Source: an uncultured Prevotella sp. (GTDB taxonomy: Bacteria; Bacteroidota; Bacteroidia; Bacteroidales; Bacteroidaceae). Taken from it: a stretch of 64,000 nucleotides of DNA. Position numbers and translations under genes: made by a program. The stretch spans positions 1 to 64,000 of the forward strand of contig CAMHAM010000003.1 of the NCBI GenBank assembly GCA_946183415.1. Reading direction: 5' to 3'. The notes under the pieces are model-generated. The model was not told where the DNA came from, searched no databases, and saw only the letters and a list, made by a program, of their open reading frames with translations. Of this stretch, positions 27,812 to 35,225 are shown one piece after another (the stretch's first letter is position 1; every line of letters begins with the position of its first letter).

Positions 27812-28417
27812 ATGTCATTTACAGAAAAAGCAAACCAGATTTTCAATCGTGCCATCAGCGACTATCATCTGACGGATGATATCAATACGCCGATTCAGAA
27901 TCCATATAAGAAAGACAGTATCGAATCTAAGCTTTACCTGAAATGCTGGATTGATACTGTTCAGTGGCATTTTGAGGATATCATCCGCGATCCTCATATT
28001 GATCCTGTGGAGGCTCTTTCCCTGAAGCGCCGCATCGATCATAGTAATCAGGATCGTACTGATCTGGTGGAAGAGATAGATTCCTATTTCCGTCAGTACT
28101 ATAGCGAGGTGAAACCTATGGATGATGCGCGTCTGAATACGGAGAGTCCTGCCTGGGCAGTAGACCGCCTGAGCATCCTTGCCTTGAAGATCTACCACAT
28201 GCAGGAACAGGTTGATCGTCAGGATGCTGAGCCTGCACATATTGAAAAGTGTAAGGCAAAGCTTGGTGTACTGCTGGAGCAACAAAAGGACTTGGCGCTG
28301 GCCATCGATCAGCTGTTGGAAGATATCGAGGCAGGTCGTAAGTATATGAAGGTATATCGCCAGATGAAGATGTATAACGATCCTGCTACCAATCCTATAT
28401 TATATATGAACAAATAA
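27812..28417 (+). CDS. DUF4254 domain-containing protein
   Basis: 201 aa, FNRAISDYHLTDDINTPIQNPY...; located before a GT9 gene, the usual Bacteroidetes context for this family. Confidence 0.75.
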   Translation: MSFTEKANQIFNRAISDYHLTDDINTPIQNPYKKDSIESKLYLKCWIDTVQWHFEDIIRDPHIDPVEALSLKRRIDHSNQDRTDLVEEIDSYFRQYYSEVKPMDDARLNTESPAWAVDRLSILALKIYHMQEQVDRQDAEPAHIEKCKAKLGVLLEQQKDLALAIDQLLEDIEAGRKYMKVYRQMKMYNDPATNPILYMNK

Positions 28418-28427
28418 GAGAGGAATA

Positions 28428-29483
28428 GTGAAGAAAGAGCATATCCTCGTCATACGATTCTCTGCACTGGGCGATGTGGCAATGACTGTTCCAGTGATTT
28501 GGGCTTTGGCTAACCAGTATCCTGATATCCGTATCACAGTACTGAGCAAGAAATTTGCCCGTCCACTCTTCTACGACCTGGCACCTAATGTGAACTTCAT
28601 GGAAGCAGATCTCTCGAATGAATATCACGGGGTGAAGGGTCTGAATGCGCTCTATCGCAGACTTGTTGCCAAGCAGTTTACAAAGGTAGCTGACCTCCAT
28701 AATGTGTTGCGCTCAGAATATCTGAGAATGCGCTTCAATCTGGGTCGCTATCGTGTGGAGCATATAGACAAACACCGTCAGCAGCGCAAGAAACTTATCT
28801 CATATAAGAATAAGGTGAAGAAGCAGCTGCCCAGTTCGTTTGAAAACTATGCTGAGGTGTTTGAGCGCTTGGGGTATCCTGTTGATATCCGCCAGTTCCA
28901 TTCCATTTTCCCTGAAGATGGTGGTAACCTGAATCTGCTTCCTAAAGAGATAGGTCCGAAAAAGAGTTTTGAACAGTGGATAGGTATTGCGCCCTTTGCA
29001 GCCCATGAGGGTAAAGTCTATCCTCCAAGACTGATGGAGCAGGTAATCTTTAACTTGATACAGAAATACCCCCAAGGACGCATCTTCCTTTTCGGAAAAG
29101 GTGAACTGGAGGATAAATACCTACAGTTATGGTGTGCTCAATATCGACAGTGCCTGATGGTAAGCAAATATTGTGAGGATAATATCTATCAGGAACTGAT
29201 TCTGATGAGTCACCTCGATGTGATGCTCTCGATGGATTCTGCCAATATGCATCTGGCCTCACTCACAGGAATCCCTGTTGTCAGTGTCTGGGGAGCTACT
29301 CATCCTATGGGTGGATTCCTGGGATTCAATCAGAATGCTGATAATGTGATACAACTTGACCTGGAATGCAGACCCTGCAGCATCTATGGTAATAAGCCTT
29401 GCCAGCGAGGCGACTATGCTTGTCTACAAAACATTCCGCCAGAGCGGATTGTTGAGAGAATAACAACCCTAATTAATAACTAA
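28428..29483 (+). CDS. glycosyltransferase family 9 (heptosyltransferase-like)
   Basis: ILVIRFSALGDVAMTVPVIWAL, MDSANMHLASLTGIPVVSVWGATHP; GTG start. Confidence 0.92.
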   Translation: MKKEHILVIRFSALGDVAMTVPVIWALANQYPDIRITVLSKKFARPLFYDLAPNVNFMEADLSNEYHGVKGLNALYRRLVAKQFTKVADLHNVLRSEYLRMRFNLGRYRVEHIDKHRQQRKKLISYKNKVKKQLPSSFENYAEVFERLGYPVDIRQFHSIFPEDGGNLNLLPKEIGPKKSFEQWIGIAPFAAHEGKVYPPRLMEQVIFNLIQKYPQGRIFLFGKGELEDKYLQLWCAQYRQCLMVSKYCEDNIYQELILMSHLDVMLSMDSANMHLASLTGIPVVSVWGATHPMGGFLGFNQNADNVIQLDLECRPCSIYGNKPCQRGDYACLQNIPPERIVERITTLINN

Positions 29484-29695: not shown

Positions 29696-30436
29696 TTACT
29701 TATCCTGTTTTTCAATTTTCAGGAGATCCATACAGTAATATTCCATTCCAGCTACTTGCTCTGACTGATAGTCACCCCAGTTAATATCCATATGATAGGC
29801 ATCGCCTGAGAAGACAACTTTCAGATCCTCCTGCAGAAAGTCTATATCAGGAAATGATTCTGGATAATACCTGATGATGGTAACATTGCTTCCAGGATAA
29901 TTATAGGCAATATACCACTTACGAAGATATTTATCCTTATGGATAGTACCCTGCTCATCTTTAACAGTCATGACGATATTCTGATCACAGTTACAGCTGG
30001 GCTTTATATTATTTGTAAACTGATTGGTAAAAAGGAAATAGTCATTATCCGAAAAATAGATTTTCAGTTTGTTACCAATAAGTTCATATCGATTCATATT
30101 GACTATATTCTTATCAAAAAATATAGATTCGTCGTCGATAACAAAGACTTGAGTCTGAATAGCACTTTCCTTTATCAAAGTATTATTCTTGCTTCTTACT
30201 TTTCCAAAGTCTGTGACGTTGCCTAAAGAATAGGCTTTCACGTTATTACCCGAGAACTCAATGGAGAACTTATGATACTCTACCTTGAAAGAATCAACTT
30301 CATGGAAATAGCCATCAACGTCCCAACCTAATAGTCTCCATTCACCTTGCAAATCATTACTGATATTATCCTTCAGACAACCCGTCAGCGAGATACCAAG
30401 AACAAACAATAAACAGATAGCAACAATCTTTTTCAT
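29696..30436 (-). CDS. putative lipoprotein
   Basis: Lipobox MKKIVAICLLFVLGISLTGC; lipocalin-like GEWRLLGWDVDG. Confidence 0.6.
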   Translation of the reverse strand: MKKIVAICLLFVLGISLTGCLKDNISNDLQGEWRLLGWDVDGYFHEVDSFKVEYHKFSIEFSGNNVKAYSLGNVTDFGKVRSKNNTLIKESAIQTQVFVIDDESIFFDKNIVNMNRYELIGNKLKIYFSDNDYFLFTNQFTNNIKPSCNCDQNIVMTVKDEQGTIHKDKYLRKWYIAYNYPGSNVTIIRYYPESFPDIDFLQEDLKVVFSGDAYHMDINWGDYQSEQVAGMEYYCMDLLKIEKQDK

Positions 30437-30455
30437 GACAATGAACAATTATAGA

Positions 30456-31617: not shown

Positions 31618-31693
31618 ACCTTATTAATTAATAATTTTGTGCAAAGATACAATTTAGAAAGCAAATAACAAAGCATTTACTCATTTATTTATA

Positions 31694-31729
31694 AGAAAAA
31701 AGCACTACCCGATGCTGGCGGATAGTGCT
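31694..31729 (-). terminator. rho-independent terminator-like hairpin on the minus strand
   Basis: Plus strand AAAAA-AGCACTACCC-GATGCTGGC-GGATAGTGCT; on the minus strand the stem is followed by TTTTTT. Confidence 0.6.
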
Positions 31730-31919
31730 GAAAACCTTCCTGTGTCGATTCATGGAACTCTACTAATTCTATGCTTACAGATTCATTATTACTCTCAAAT
31801 TGTCAGATATGGAGCTATATGTATTAAAACAACATTGTCATCAGACGTTTCTATCTATATAACTGGAAAAAGCAAAAACCTTGCAAAGATTTGCCAGAAT
31901 TTATAATTCATTAACTTTT

Positions 31920-32240
31920 CTCTATATTTGTTCAGAAAAGAAAATGTTGATAAACCTGTGGAAAACTATGTGGATAACTTGTGGATTTTTGCACAAAAAG
32001 AAGTTGAAAACCTGAAATATGTGGATATTAACAGACTTATTAAGGGGAAATACAGCACTTTTCAACAGATTTTTGCTGAAAAAAGATATAAACTTATTAA
32101 ATTTGCACCGAAAATGGAAATTGTGGATAAAGTGCGTGAAGTCTTCATTATCAGAGAATAAGAATCCACAGAGAGTGTGAATAAGGCATCTTTGTACGTG
32201 GATAACTGATTGTGCAAGAAAAACGTGGAAAAGTTATCAA
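31920..32240. other. candidate chromosomal replication origin (DnaA-box cluster)
   Basis: Exact TGTGGATAA (=TTATCCACA) at 31969-31977 and 32122-32130; one-mismatch boxes at 31957-31965, 32020-32028, 32176-32184 and 32197-32205, all in the same orientation, in a roughly 700-bp AT-rich gap without a credible gene. Confidence 0.65.
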
Positions 32241-32312
32241 GATTTCAACGGCATATCATCCTATTCATTTCATTTTTAAAGAAAAGAAAAAAAGAAAAAT
32301 AAGAATAATGAG

Positions 32313-33257
32313 ATGTTGAAAACTGAAGATCTGAAAGCGGAAATCCGCAGAATGTGTGAAGAGAAGGATGCAATCATTCTCGCACACTATTATACGATTG
32401 GCGATATTCAAGATATTGCTGATTTCGTAGGTGATTCATTGGCTTTAGCTCGTAAGGCTGCAGAGACTGATGCGAAAATCATGGTGATGTGTGGTGTTCA
32501 CTTTATGGCTGAGACGTGTAAACTGCTCTCACCAGACAAGATGGTGCTTTGTCCAGATTTGGAAGCAGGCTGTTCTTTGGCTGACTCATGCAAAGCTGAG
32601 GACTTGAAGAAATTCAAGGCTGAGCATCCTGGTTATCAGGTTATCTCTTATGTCAATACGACAGCTGCTGTGAAGGCTCTGACGGATGTAGTCGTTACAA
32701 GTGGTAATGCCAAGAAGGTAGTAGATCAGCTACCAAAGGATGCCAAACTTATTTTTGGTCCTGATTATAACTTAGGTAACTATATCAATGAGGTGACGGG
32801 TAGAGAGATGTTACTCTGGAATGGTGGTTGTCATGTGCATGAGCGTTTCTCTGTAGAGAAGATCATAGAACTGAAGAAACAATATCCAGAAGCTGTGGTG
32901 ATGGCTCACTTGGAGTGTAAGGCTCCTGTTCTGGCTGTTGCTGATGTCAAGGGCTCTACGGCAACGATGCTGAATTATGCTCAGCAGAGTGATAAGAAGC
33001 AGTTTATTGTGGCTACAGAGGCTGGAATCCTCCACGAGATGCAGCGAACTTGTCCTGACAAGGAATTTATCCCTGTGCCTCCTGAAATCAGCGAGAGCGG
33101 GCTGGAATGCAGCTGTAACGAGTGCCAGTATATGAAGATGAATACACTGGAGAAGGTCTATAACTGTCTGAAAAATGAAAATCCTCAAATAGAGATTGAT
33201 CCTGAGATAGCAAAAGAGGCTGTCAAGCCGATAGAGAGAATGCTTGAACTCTCATGA
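32313..33257 (+). CDS. nadA: quinolinate synthase
   Basis: ILAHYYTIGDIQDIADFVGDSLALARKAA, HFMAETCKLL, PDLEAGCSLADSC, CSCNECQYMKMNTLEKV. Confidence 0.96.
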   Translation: MLKTEDLKAEIRRMCEEKDAIILAHYYTIGDIQDIADFVGDSLALARKAAETDAKIMVMCGVHFMAETCKLLSPDKMVLCPDLEAGCSLADSCKAEDLKKFKAEHPGYQVISYVNTTAAVKALTDVVVTSGNAKKVVDQLPKDAKLIFGPDYNLGNYINEVTGREMLLWNGGCHVHERFSVEKIIELKKQYPEAVVMAHLECKAPVLAVADVKGSTATMLNYAQQSDKKQFIVATEAGILHEMQRTCPDKEFIPVPPEISESGLECSCNECQYMKMNTLEKVYNCLKNENPQIEIDPEIAKEAVKPIERMLELS

Positions 33258-33293: not shown

Positions 33294-35225
33294 TCAACGG
33301 ATAATGGCTATTTTGCAACAAGTGCCACTTCTGCCTTCTGAAGTGGCACTTATTACATAATAAATGCCACTTATTACGCGACGCCCGTTTTTGTCGCAAC
33401 CATCCCAAGTAAACAGGCCTCCGTTACTGCGTCCTTCAGCTATCAGAGCACCATTAGAGGTAGTGATTTTTACGTCTGCATCGTAGCTGAGACCAGTAAT
33501 GGTGATCAGTCCCGTATAGTCAGGTGTCACAGGGTTAGGATAAGCCCAGACATTATCTTTTGTCATCTCCTCAGCAGGCTCGATAGCGTTGCTCATATAG
33601 GAGCAAAGTCCATCATCAGAAAGGAAGAACACCTCGCCTGACTTCTGATTGATGACAACGGATGTAATCTGATTGGTAATCAGTTTCGAATTGTCAGTCG
33701 TGAAGTTATGTATCTGGTTCATGTTATCAGCACTGATCAGGAAGGCTCCTGCGCCATTCGTACCAAACCACTTACGATTGCCACCATCAATGGCAATACT
33801 GCTGATGCTGACGCCTGAAAGCAGATAGTCAGCATAATCAGTACCATCGTTACGAGGCACTTTCACCTGCTGGAAAGTCACACGCTCCTGCCCTACTTCC
33901 TTTTTCTGTATCATAAAAGGTCCTGAGTCTGTGCCTACCCAGATATTGCCCTCTCTGTCTTCTGCTACGCAATAGGTCCATACCACGTCGTATTTTACGC
34001 CATCCTGATTCGTAAAGTTATTGTATTTGATAAGATTATCGTTCTCCATATCATAGCAGAAGAGCGACGGATCCTGCCAGTTATTGTTCACGAACCAGAG
34101 CAGCCCACGACTGTCGATCATCATTCCTCTGAGACCTGCCAACGTATTGCCAGCATCGTCAGTAAGTAATGTCTGATGATGGTCTGTCCACTGATGGTCT
34201 GATGAGAGCTTCAGAAGACTGGCACCTTTGGCCATACTGTTCAGAACCCAGAGATTTCCCTGAGCGTCGAACTTGATACCAAGGATCAGCACAAAGTCGT
34301 TGCCTAACTCTGTACCTCTGTCGTTAGCTCCCTTCAGCGGACTGTTATCCTTATTATAATAGGTTGTCAGTTTACCATTCAGAAACTCGTAGAGTCCGCA
34401 TTTGCCTCCAGCATAAACGTGGTCTGCATTCGTTGGATCTACATCGATGCAACAGATATCCTCATATTTATAGCCAGTCTTTTGGCTTATTTCCTCTTCA
34501 TAGAGCGTCCAGTCGTTGCCATTGTAGGTCTGAATGATACCAGGCAGCTGTTTATCAGGAATACTTGGCAGGAAATAGCCTCCTGTGGTATAGAGTCTGC
34601 CATTTATTAATTTGGCCTCGTAAAAGTGGTTATAGGCTGGTCCTCCAGGATTCAGCGTGATGACGGTAGCGATATATTCATCATAGTCATCCTGATATTC
34701 AGGCAGATTTGTAGGATAATCAGGCATGTTAGGCGTATAGGTGTCAGAGATCTCAGCCTTCTGTAGATTAACCTTCACGATACCAAATCCACAATGCAGA
34801 TAAGCATAGATGCCATCGATTGAAATCTTATAAACCGTTTTGTCGTCTGTCATCGATTTATTGTAGAGAGCAGAGATATTGATGATGTCGCCATCTGTCT
34901 CCACCAGATCGATATTAGAGTTCTGATAAACTGCTATCAGGCGCTTGGCTTGCTGGCTCCAAGCGATATGAGTGATGTGGGTATCGCTGAGTCCATTGAT
35001 CTTATCGTAGGTGATGATACTCTGATCGTTCAGGTGATACTGATAGAGATCGTTTGAAGCCAGCACGAAGAGTTCATCGCCAGCCTTACAGATGCTCTGC
35101 ACTTGGTGATAAGCCAGATGATGATGCCAAGTGCCCACTTGAGCATGTAAAGGTAAAAAAGTAAAAAGGTAAAAAGGTAATAGCCATTTTACCAGATGTC
35201 TGATAGCAAATACGTTTATTCTCAC
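33294..35225 (-). CDS. PorZ-like T9SS-associated beta-propeller protein
   Basis: Signal peptide then QVGTWHHHLAYHQVQSI...; repeated propeller blades (GNLWVLNS, GLLWFVNNN, GNIWVGTDSGPF); C-terminal Ig-like/T9SS-CTD-like domain. Confidence 0.8.
   Translation of the reverse strand: MRINVFAIRHLVKWLLPFYLFTFLPLHAQVGTWHHHLAYHQVQSICKAGDELFVLASNDLYQYHLNDQSIITYDKINGLSDTHITHIAWSQQAKRLIAVYQNSNIDLVETDGDIINISALYNKSMTDDKTVYKISIDGIYAYLHCGFGIVKVNLQKAEISDTYTPNMPDYPTNLPEYQDDYDEYIATVITLNPGGPAYNHFYEAKLINGRLYTTGGYFLPSIPDKQLPGIIQTYNGNDWTLYEEEISQKTGYKYEDICCIDVDPTNADHVYAGGKCGLYEFLNGKLTTYYNKDNSPLKGANDRGTELGNDFVLILGIKFDAQGNLWVLNSMAKGASLLKLSSDHQWTDHHQTLLTDDAGNTLAGLRGMMIDSRGLLWFVNNNWQDPSLFCYDMENDNLIKYNNFTNQDGVKYDVVWTYCVAEDREGNIWVGTDSGPFMIQKKEVGQERVTFQQVKVPRNDGTDYADYLLSGVSISSIAIDGGNRKWFGTNGAGAFLISADNMNQIHNFTTDNSKLITNQITSVVINQKSGEVFFLSDDGLCSYMSNAIEPAEEMTKDNVWAYPNPVTPDYTGLITITGLSYDADVKITTSNGALIAEGRSNGGLFTWDGCDKNGRRVISGIYYVISATSEGRSGTCCKIAIIR
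35148..35180. repeat. AAAGGTAAA-type repeat inside the porZ-like signal peptide region
   Basis: AAAGGTAAAAAAGTAAAAAGGTAAAAAGGTAAT; encodes LLPFYLFTFLPL on the minus strand. Confidence 0.6.

Follow-up and report, generated by a model that had tools for sequence, protein, structure and literature searches.

A highly probable chromosomal replication origin, distant from dnaA, in a Prevotella-type bacterium

Introduction

Bacteroidota count among the principal bacteria of gut and rumen, and their replication origins are mostly computer predictions that lie away from dnaA. Such a location is also found in Escherichia coli, where oriC lies between gidA and mioC, not adjacent to dnaA, and consists of a DnaA box cluster beside an AT-rich unwinding region. 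In Bacillus subtilis, the basal unwinding system comprises DnaA-boxes 6/7 and DnaA-trios (PMC8287927, PMC6669920). The published rule for such systems specifies a box with at most two mismatches, a partner with at most four, a spacer of up to 16 bp and at least three NAN trios (PMC8287927). In Prevotella intermedia OMA14, oriC was predicted by Ori-Finder at a site away from dnaA, a situation that the authors call common in the phylum (PMC4755523).

The DNA analyzed here, referred to as the window, is a stretch of 64,000 nucleotides from an uncultured Prevotella sp. (contig CAMHAM010000003.1, positions 1 to 64,000). A preliminary description had proposed that a cluster of DnaA boxes upstream of nadA is an oriC not adjacent to dnaA, a proposal now supported by conserved boxes and by a skew switch in relatives. 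The sequence, its conservation, its copy number and the skew switch in relatives indicate that window positions 31945-32310 are very probably the chromosomal replication origin of this Prevotella-type bacterium. The cluster is, however, only part of a longer conserved element that has a 26-bp core and in some relatives lies away from nadA.

A DnaA-dependent oriC away from dnaA is a known kind of origin, of which this is another, well-supported case. The locus resembles E. coli oriC in its distance from dnaA and in having boxes beside an AT-rich region, but its neighbours and architecture differ, the array in the window being mainly of one orientation, and no homology is claimed. With the B. 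subtilis system it shares tandem boxes, a short spacer and NAN trios with a conserved middle A; in contrast to that system, it is not beside dnaA, it has a near-invariant core with a promoter-like motif between the box arrays, and its unwinding is predicted. Like the OMA14 oriC, it is a Prevotella locus with multiple DnaA boxes and a skew transition that is not near dnaA, the likeness being one of published position (PMC4755523).

Results

DnaA boxes in the intergenic gap

When both strands were counted, the gap 31618-32312 was found to contain seven DnaA boxes with no more than one mismatch to TTATCCACA, two exact and five with one mismatch. They start at 31945, 31957, 31969, 32020, 32122, 32176 and 32197 and all have the TGTGGATAA orientation; the first three are spaced 12 bp apart. 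The number expected was 0.23, and the maximum in 5000 first-order Markov shuffles was three. Outside the cluster, the densest 300-bp segment of the 148,580-bp contig has two boxes, and the exact boxes at 31969/32122 are the only such pair less than 1 kb apart in the whole 3.38-Mb assembly. No Rfam match was obtained in the window.

The preliminary description had listed exact TGTGGATAA sites at 31969-31977 and 32122-32130 and one-mismatch sites at 31957, 32020, 32176 and 32197. All of these are present, but the one-mismatch site TGTTGATAA at 31945 had been overlooked. The sites at 31980 and 32224 have two mismatches each. The statement that all boxes share one orientation holds for the seven boxes that have one mismatch or none, but not for the weaker inverted pair at 32234-32250.

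Table 1. Features of the putative origin and its neighbours (window coordinates)
Feature	Position	Strand	Remarks
DUF4254 and glycosyltransferase-9 genes	27812..29483	+	Left neighbours kept in several relatives
Left DnaA-box array	31945..31988	+	TGTTGATAA 31945, TGTGGAAAA 31957, TGTGGATAA 31969, TGTGGATTT 31980; positions aligned in relatives
DnaA box TGTGGATAT	32020..32028	+	Inside a block reading GGGATATC-CACA in relatives
Inverted weak box	32059..32067	-	Two mismatches in the window; relatives' consensus TTTTCCAC; just upstream of core
Near-invariant core AAAGATATAAACTTATTAAATTTGCA	32082..32107	+	Holds Bacteroidota -7-like TAnnTTTG
Exact DnaA box	32122..32130	+	Constant 40 bp from core start
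DnaA boxes TGTGAATAA (32176) and CGTGGATAA (32197)	32176..32205	+	Box scan
Inverted tandem box pair TTATCAAGA / ATTTCAACG	32234..32250	-	Conserved in position among relatives
DnaA-trio-like tract ATC ATC CTA TTC ATT	32255..32269	+	T every third base; A on opposite strand
T-rich then A-rich tract	32270..32310		Candidate unwinding region; conserved tract beside boxes
nadA (quinolinate synthase)	32313..33257	+	Conserved neighbour

Conservation and copy number

Conservation of the boxes upstream of nadA in related Prevotella had been suggested as a check, and their positions proved to be kept in many relatives. A search of 149 genomes identified nadA relatives in 113. Many genomes of the genus have the same array with the same spacing upstream of nadA, and others have nothing there. 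A sequence profile, R1, was built from an alignment of the relatives' elements. In 11 genomes picked mainly for completeness, R1 gave one outstanding match in ten (E 2.5e-43 to 2.5e-12; next best 8.4e-4 or weaker), the exception being the draft G025, in which no match was found. Among 249 genomes of the genus, 166 had a match at E ≤1e-5, as did 93 of the 107 high-quality assemblies; many of the 83 genomes with no R1 match are incomplete. A single strong copy was found in 165 of the 249 genomes, and G044 alone was multi-copy. In every relative sampled, the densest box cluster was this same element.

The three copies in G044 (contigs C26, C30 and C13) accompany three nadA matches of very different identities; the record is likely a mixed assembly, with multiple origins as the alternative. 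The element of G016 is the most diverged among the complete genomes.

The core

The core has no other copy in its own genome, even when three mismatches are allowed. Searching genome records with the core located at least 119 places, and almost all of those listed are labelled Prevotella or Prevotellaceae. When loci were fetched by the core alone, three or more boxes lay within 350 bp at 115 of 119, the average in control stretches being 0.27 boxes. The information content of the core pattern AAAGATATAAACTTATTAnnTTTGCA equals or exceeds that of the boxes, an estimate that is inflated because the loci were chosen with this very pattern. A less biased observation is that the core, including TAnnTTTG, is intact in nearly every copy selected by profile.

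TAnnTTTG is the Bacteroidota -7 motif, and the sigma-ABfr promoter also has TTTG near -33 (PMC7366714). A TTG was found upstream of the TAnnTTTG of the core at 66 of 114 loci versus 8 of 114 control stretches. Since the core has the motif and the upstream TTG is enriched, a rightward promoter inside the origin core is plausible. A sigma-70 promoter scan of the region was uninformative.

The predicted opening site

Of the inverted pair, TTATCAAGA (32234-32242) has two mismatches and ATTTCAACG (32242-32250) has four. The pair is nearer the consensus in relatives (TTATCAAC-TTATCCAC), where it is followed by a spacer of 4-5 nt and then by T at every third position. Over the five trios, the T fractions in 46 sequences were 1.00, 1.00, 0.78, 0.76 and 0.87, a periodicity matched by 1 of 1000 column permutations. 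The signal is strong only column-wise; tested per sequence with simple shuffles it was weak (median p 0.098). A loose regular expression for an inverted box plus trios matched only 61 of 119 core loci. The window itself conforms to the basal-unwinding rule (PMC8287927), with a pair of two and four mismatches followed by five trios at 32255-32269. Judged from this arrangement, the inverted pair and the trio-like tract (32234-32269) are likely the opening site. The A-rich tract at 32270-32310, earlier regarded as a possible unwinding element, qualifies as part of the site but not alone, since the probable site is the trio-like tract at 32255-32269 plus the AT tract that follows it.

Strand skew

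Skew was sampled in 20-kb blocks around three single-contig chromosomes, with denser blocks near the element in seven genomes. Gene orientation confounded both raw GC skew in the window and uncorrected GC3, which were dropped in favour of a strand-corrected test, carried out gene by gene at third positions with a term for gene orientation. The preliminary description had expected the skew minimum to fall near the boxes; in complete relatives, the strand-skew switch indeed maps to the element. GC3 changes from -0.123 to +0.116 across the element in G024 and from -0.101 to +0.047 in G045, with free change points +1.0 to +1.9 kb and -0.6 to +1.1 kb from the element, respectively. In whole-chromosome two-point fits on the 20-kb grid, the best origin position was 1.52 Mb for G024 (element at 1.5097 Mb) and 2.76 Mb for G045 (element at 2.7637 Mb), in both cases a grid point adjacent to the element.

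The local GC3 switch had p values of 0.0005 in G024, G045, G084 and G010, 0.001 in G075 and, more weakly, 0.003 in G061. Free GC3 change points were 7 to 108 kb off the element in G075, G084, G010 and G061; those of G084, G075 and G010 were within about 32 kb, and in G061 the two sides differ, yet the free switch is 108 kb off. The skew of G016 is scrambled, the best origin fit being 0.98 Mb versus 0.66 Mb for the element. The sampled skew of G016 changes sign several times along the whole chromosome, suggesting large rearrangements or assembly errors.

The skew of the fragmented genome to which the window belongs (107 contigs) is only suggestive. On its own contig, where the part to the left of the element spans 29 genes and 32 kb, GC3 gave p=0.073 with a free change point 22 kb off, and TA3 gave p=0.0105 with a change point at +6 to +8 kb. 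A version restricted to four-fold sites, which uses short contiguous segments and is noisier, showed no signal in this contig (p=0.31) or in G061. Because GC3 on the contig is not significant, whereas TA3 is, the skew case rests on the relatives and is carried to the window by sequence homology.

Neighbouring genes and dnaA

To the right of the element, several relatives share nadA, porZ, rdgB/yitT and leuS, and to its left rnc, fabF, DUF4254 and the family-9 glycosyltransferase. PorZ (window 33294-35225, - strand), which belongs to the type IX secretion system, is a conserved near-origin neighbour. In the window, the glycosyltransferase is separated from the origin by an ORF at 29696-30448, a SpoU methylase and an outer-membrane barrel; it is closer to the origin in G045, G244 and G075. 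The ORF (- strand, about 250 aa) has no Pfam/NCBIfam match.

As the preliminary description had stated, dnaA is absent from the window. DnaA is encoded on another contig of the same genome, C48 (PF00308 match, E 1.5e-50), and in the complete relatives examined dnaA lies 0.37-1.24 Mb from the element around the circle.

A second profile, R2, was searched in 40 genomes representing 40 other Bacteroidales families, in most of which no recognizable match was found. In nine (G117, G110, G112, G148, G130, G118, G109, G105 and G131), among them the six best-scoring, the best match lay immediately upstream of nadA; a lower-ranked match in G114 was also upstream of nadA. Because a single such coincidence would arise by chance roughly once in several thousand cases, the nadA-origin linkage is, judged by these matches, older than the genus. 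A literature search found no report of the linkage; individual DoriC predictions may already include the place.

Discussion

The possibility was considered that the boxes constitute a DnaA-controlled nadA promoter that regulates quinolinate synthase and not replication. Such a role would be in keeping with the location of nadA, directly downstream at 100 of 119 core loci (from at least 119 places) and in nine other families, and with the promoter-like TAnnTTTG of the core with its upstream TTG (66/114 versus 8/114 controls). However, a distance of 0.7-1.5 Mb separates the element from nadA in G075, G084 and G010, where it retains both its sequence and its skew switch. A search for nadA in G016 and G003 did not find the gene, though the element is present. 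The element thus persists where nadA lies elsewhere and is not a nadA leader. Moreover, a regulatory leader would not coincide with the skew minimum, so that the skew result already largely refutes this explanation, which we consider very unlikely.

A dense, single-copy box cluster could also be a DnaA titration or reactivation site of the datA/DARS type instead of an origin. Sites of this type would be out of place at the skew minimum, trio-like and AT-rich tracts are present here, and the sampled parts of relatives contain no second comparable cluster; this reading is extremely unlikely. Finally, the locus might be where a second chromosome or a megaplasmid starts its replication, considering that two-chromosome Prevotella exist, P. 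intermedia having two (PMC4755523), and that the window's own assembly is fragmented. Against this, the element is located on the single chromosome of G024 (3.5 Mb) and of G045 (3.3 Mb), and leuS, rnc and fabF are among its neighbours, leaving a second replicon with almost no probability.

If the element is the chromosomal origin, DnaA supplied by the distant dnaA gene would fill the same-orientation box array, and the inverted pair at 32234-32250 would direct DnaA to form a filament on the neighbouring trio-like strand at 32255-32269. Strand opening would occur at this tract and in the AT-rich stretch preceding nadA, after which helicase would be loaded and replication would proceed bidirectionally. 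A rightward promoter probably lies in the core at 32082-32107; transcription from it through the right half may help opening or may tie the downstream gene's expression to DnaA occupancy. A more far-reaching proposal is that the core is an origin-specific element undescribed in other bacterial origins, for instance a built-in promoter or the site of a novel initiation factor of Bacteroidota on which opening depends, and that the origin-nadA linkage is ancestral in Bacteroidales. This combined proposal is possible, though we regard it as rather doubtful.

An origin-finding sequence profile, usable even in draft assemblies, would improve read-depth growth-rate estimates and genome orientation, and the core and trio tract provide precise bases to test.

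Two minor observations were also made. The single-contig assembly of G176 (C1, length 3454626) terminates inside the element, with profile positions 40-212 matched at 3454454-3454626; the record was therefore probably opened at the origin or close to it. In the window, a terminator-like hairpin of 11 pairs followed by a T run (31701-31729, - strand) separates the outer-membrane gene from the origin, in a position suited to stop leftward transcription leaving the origin.
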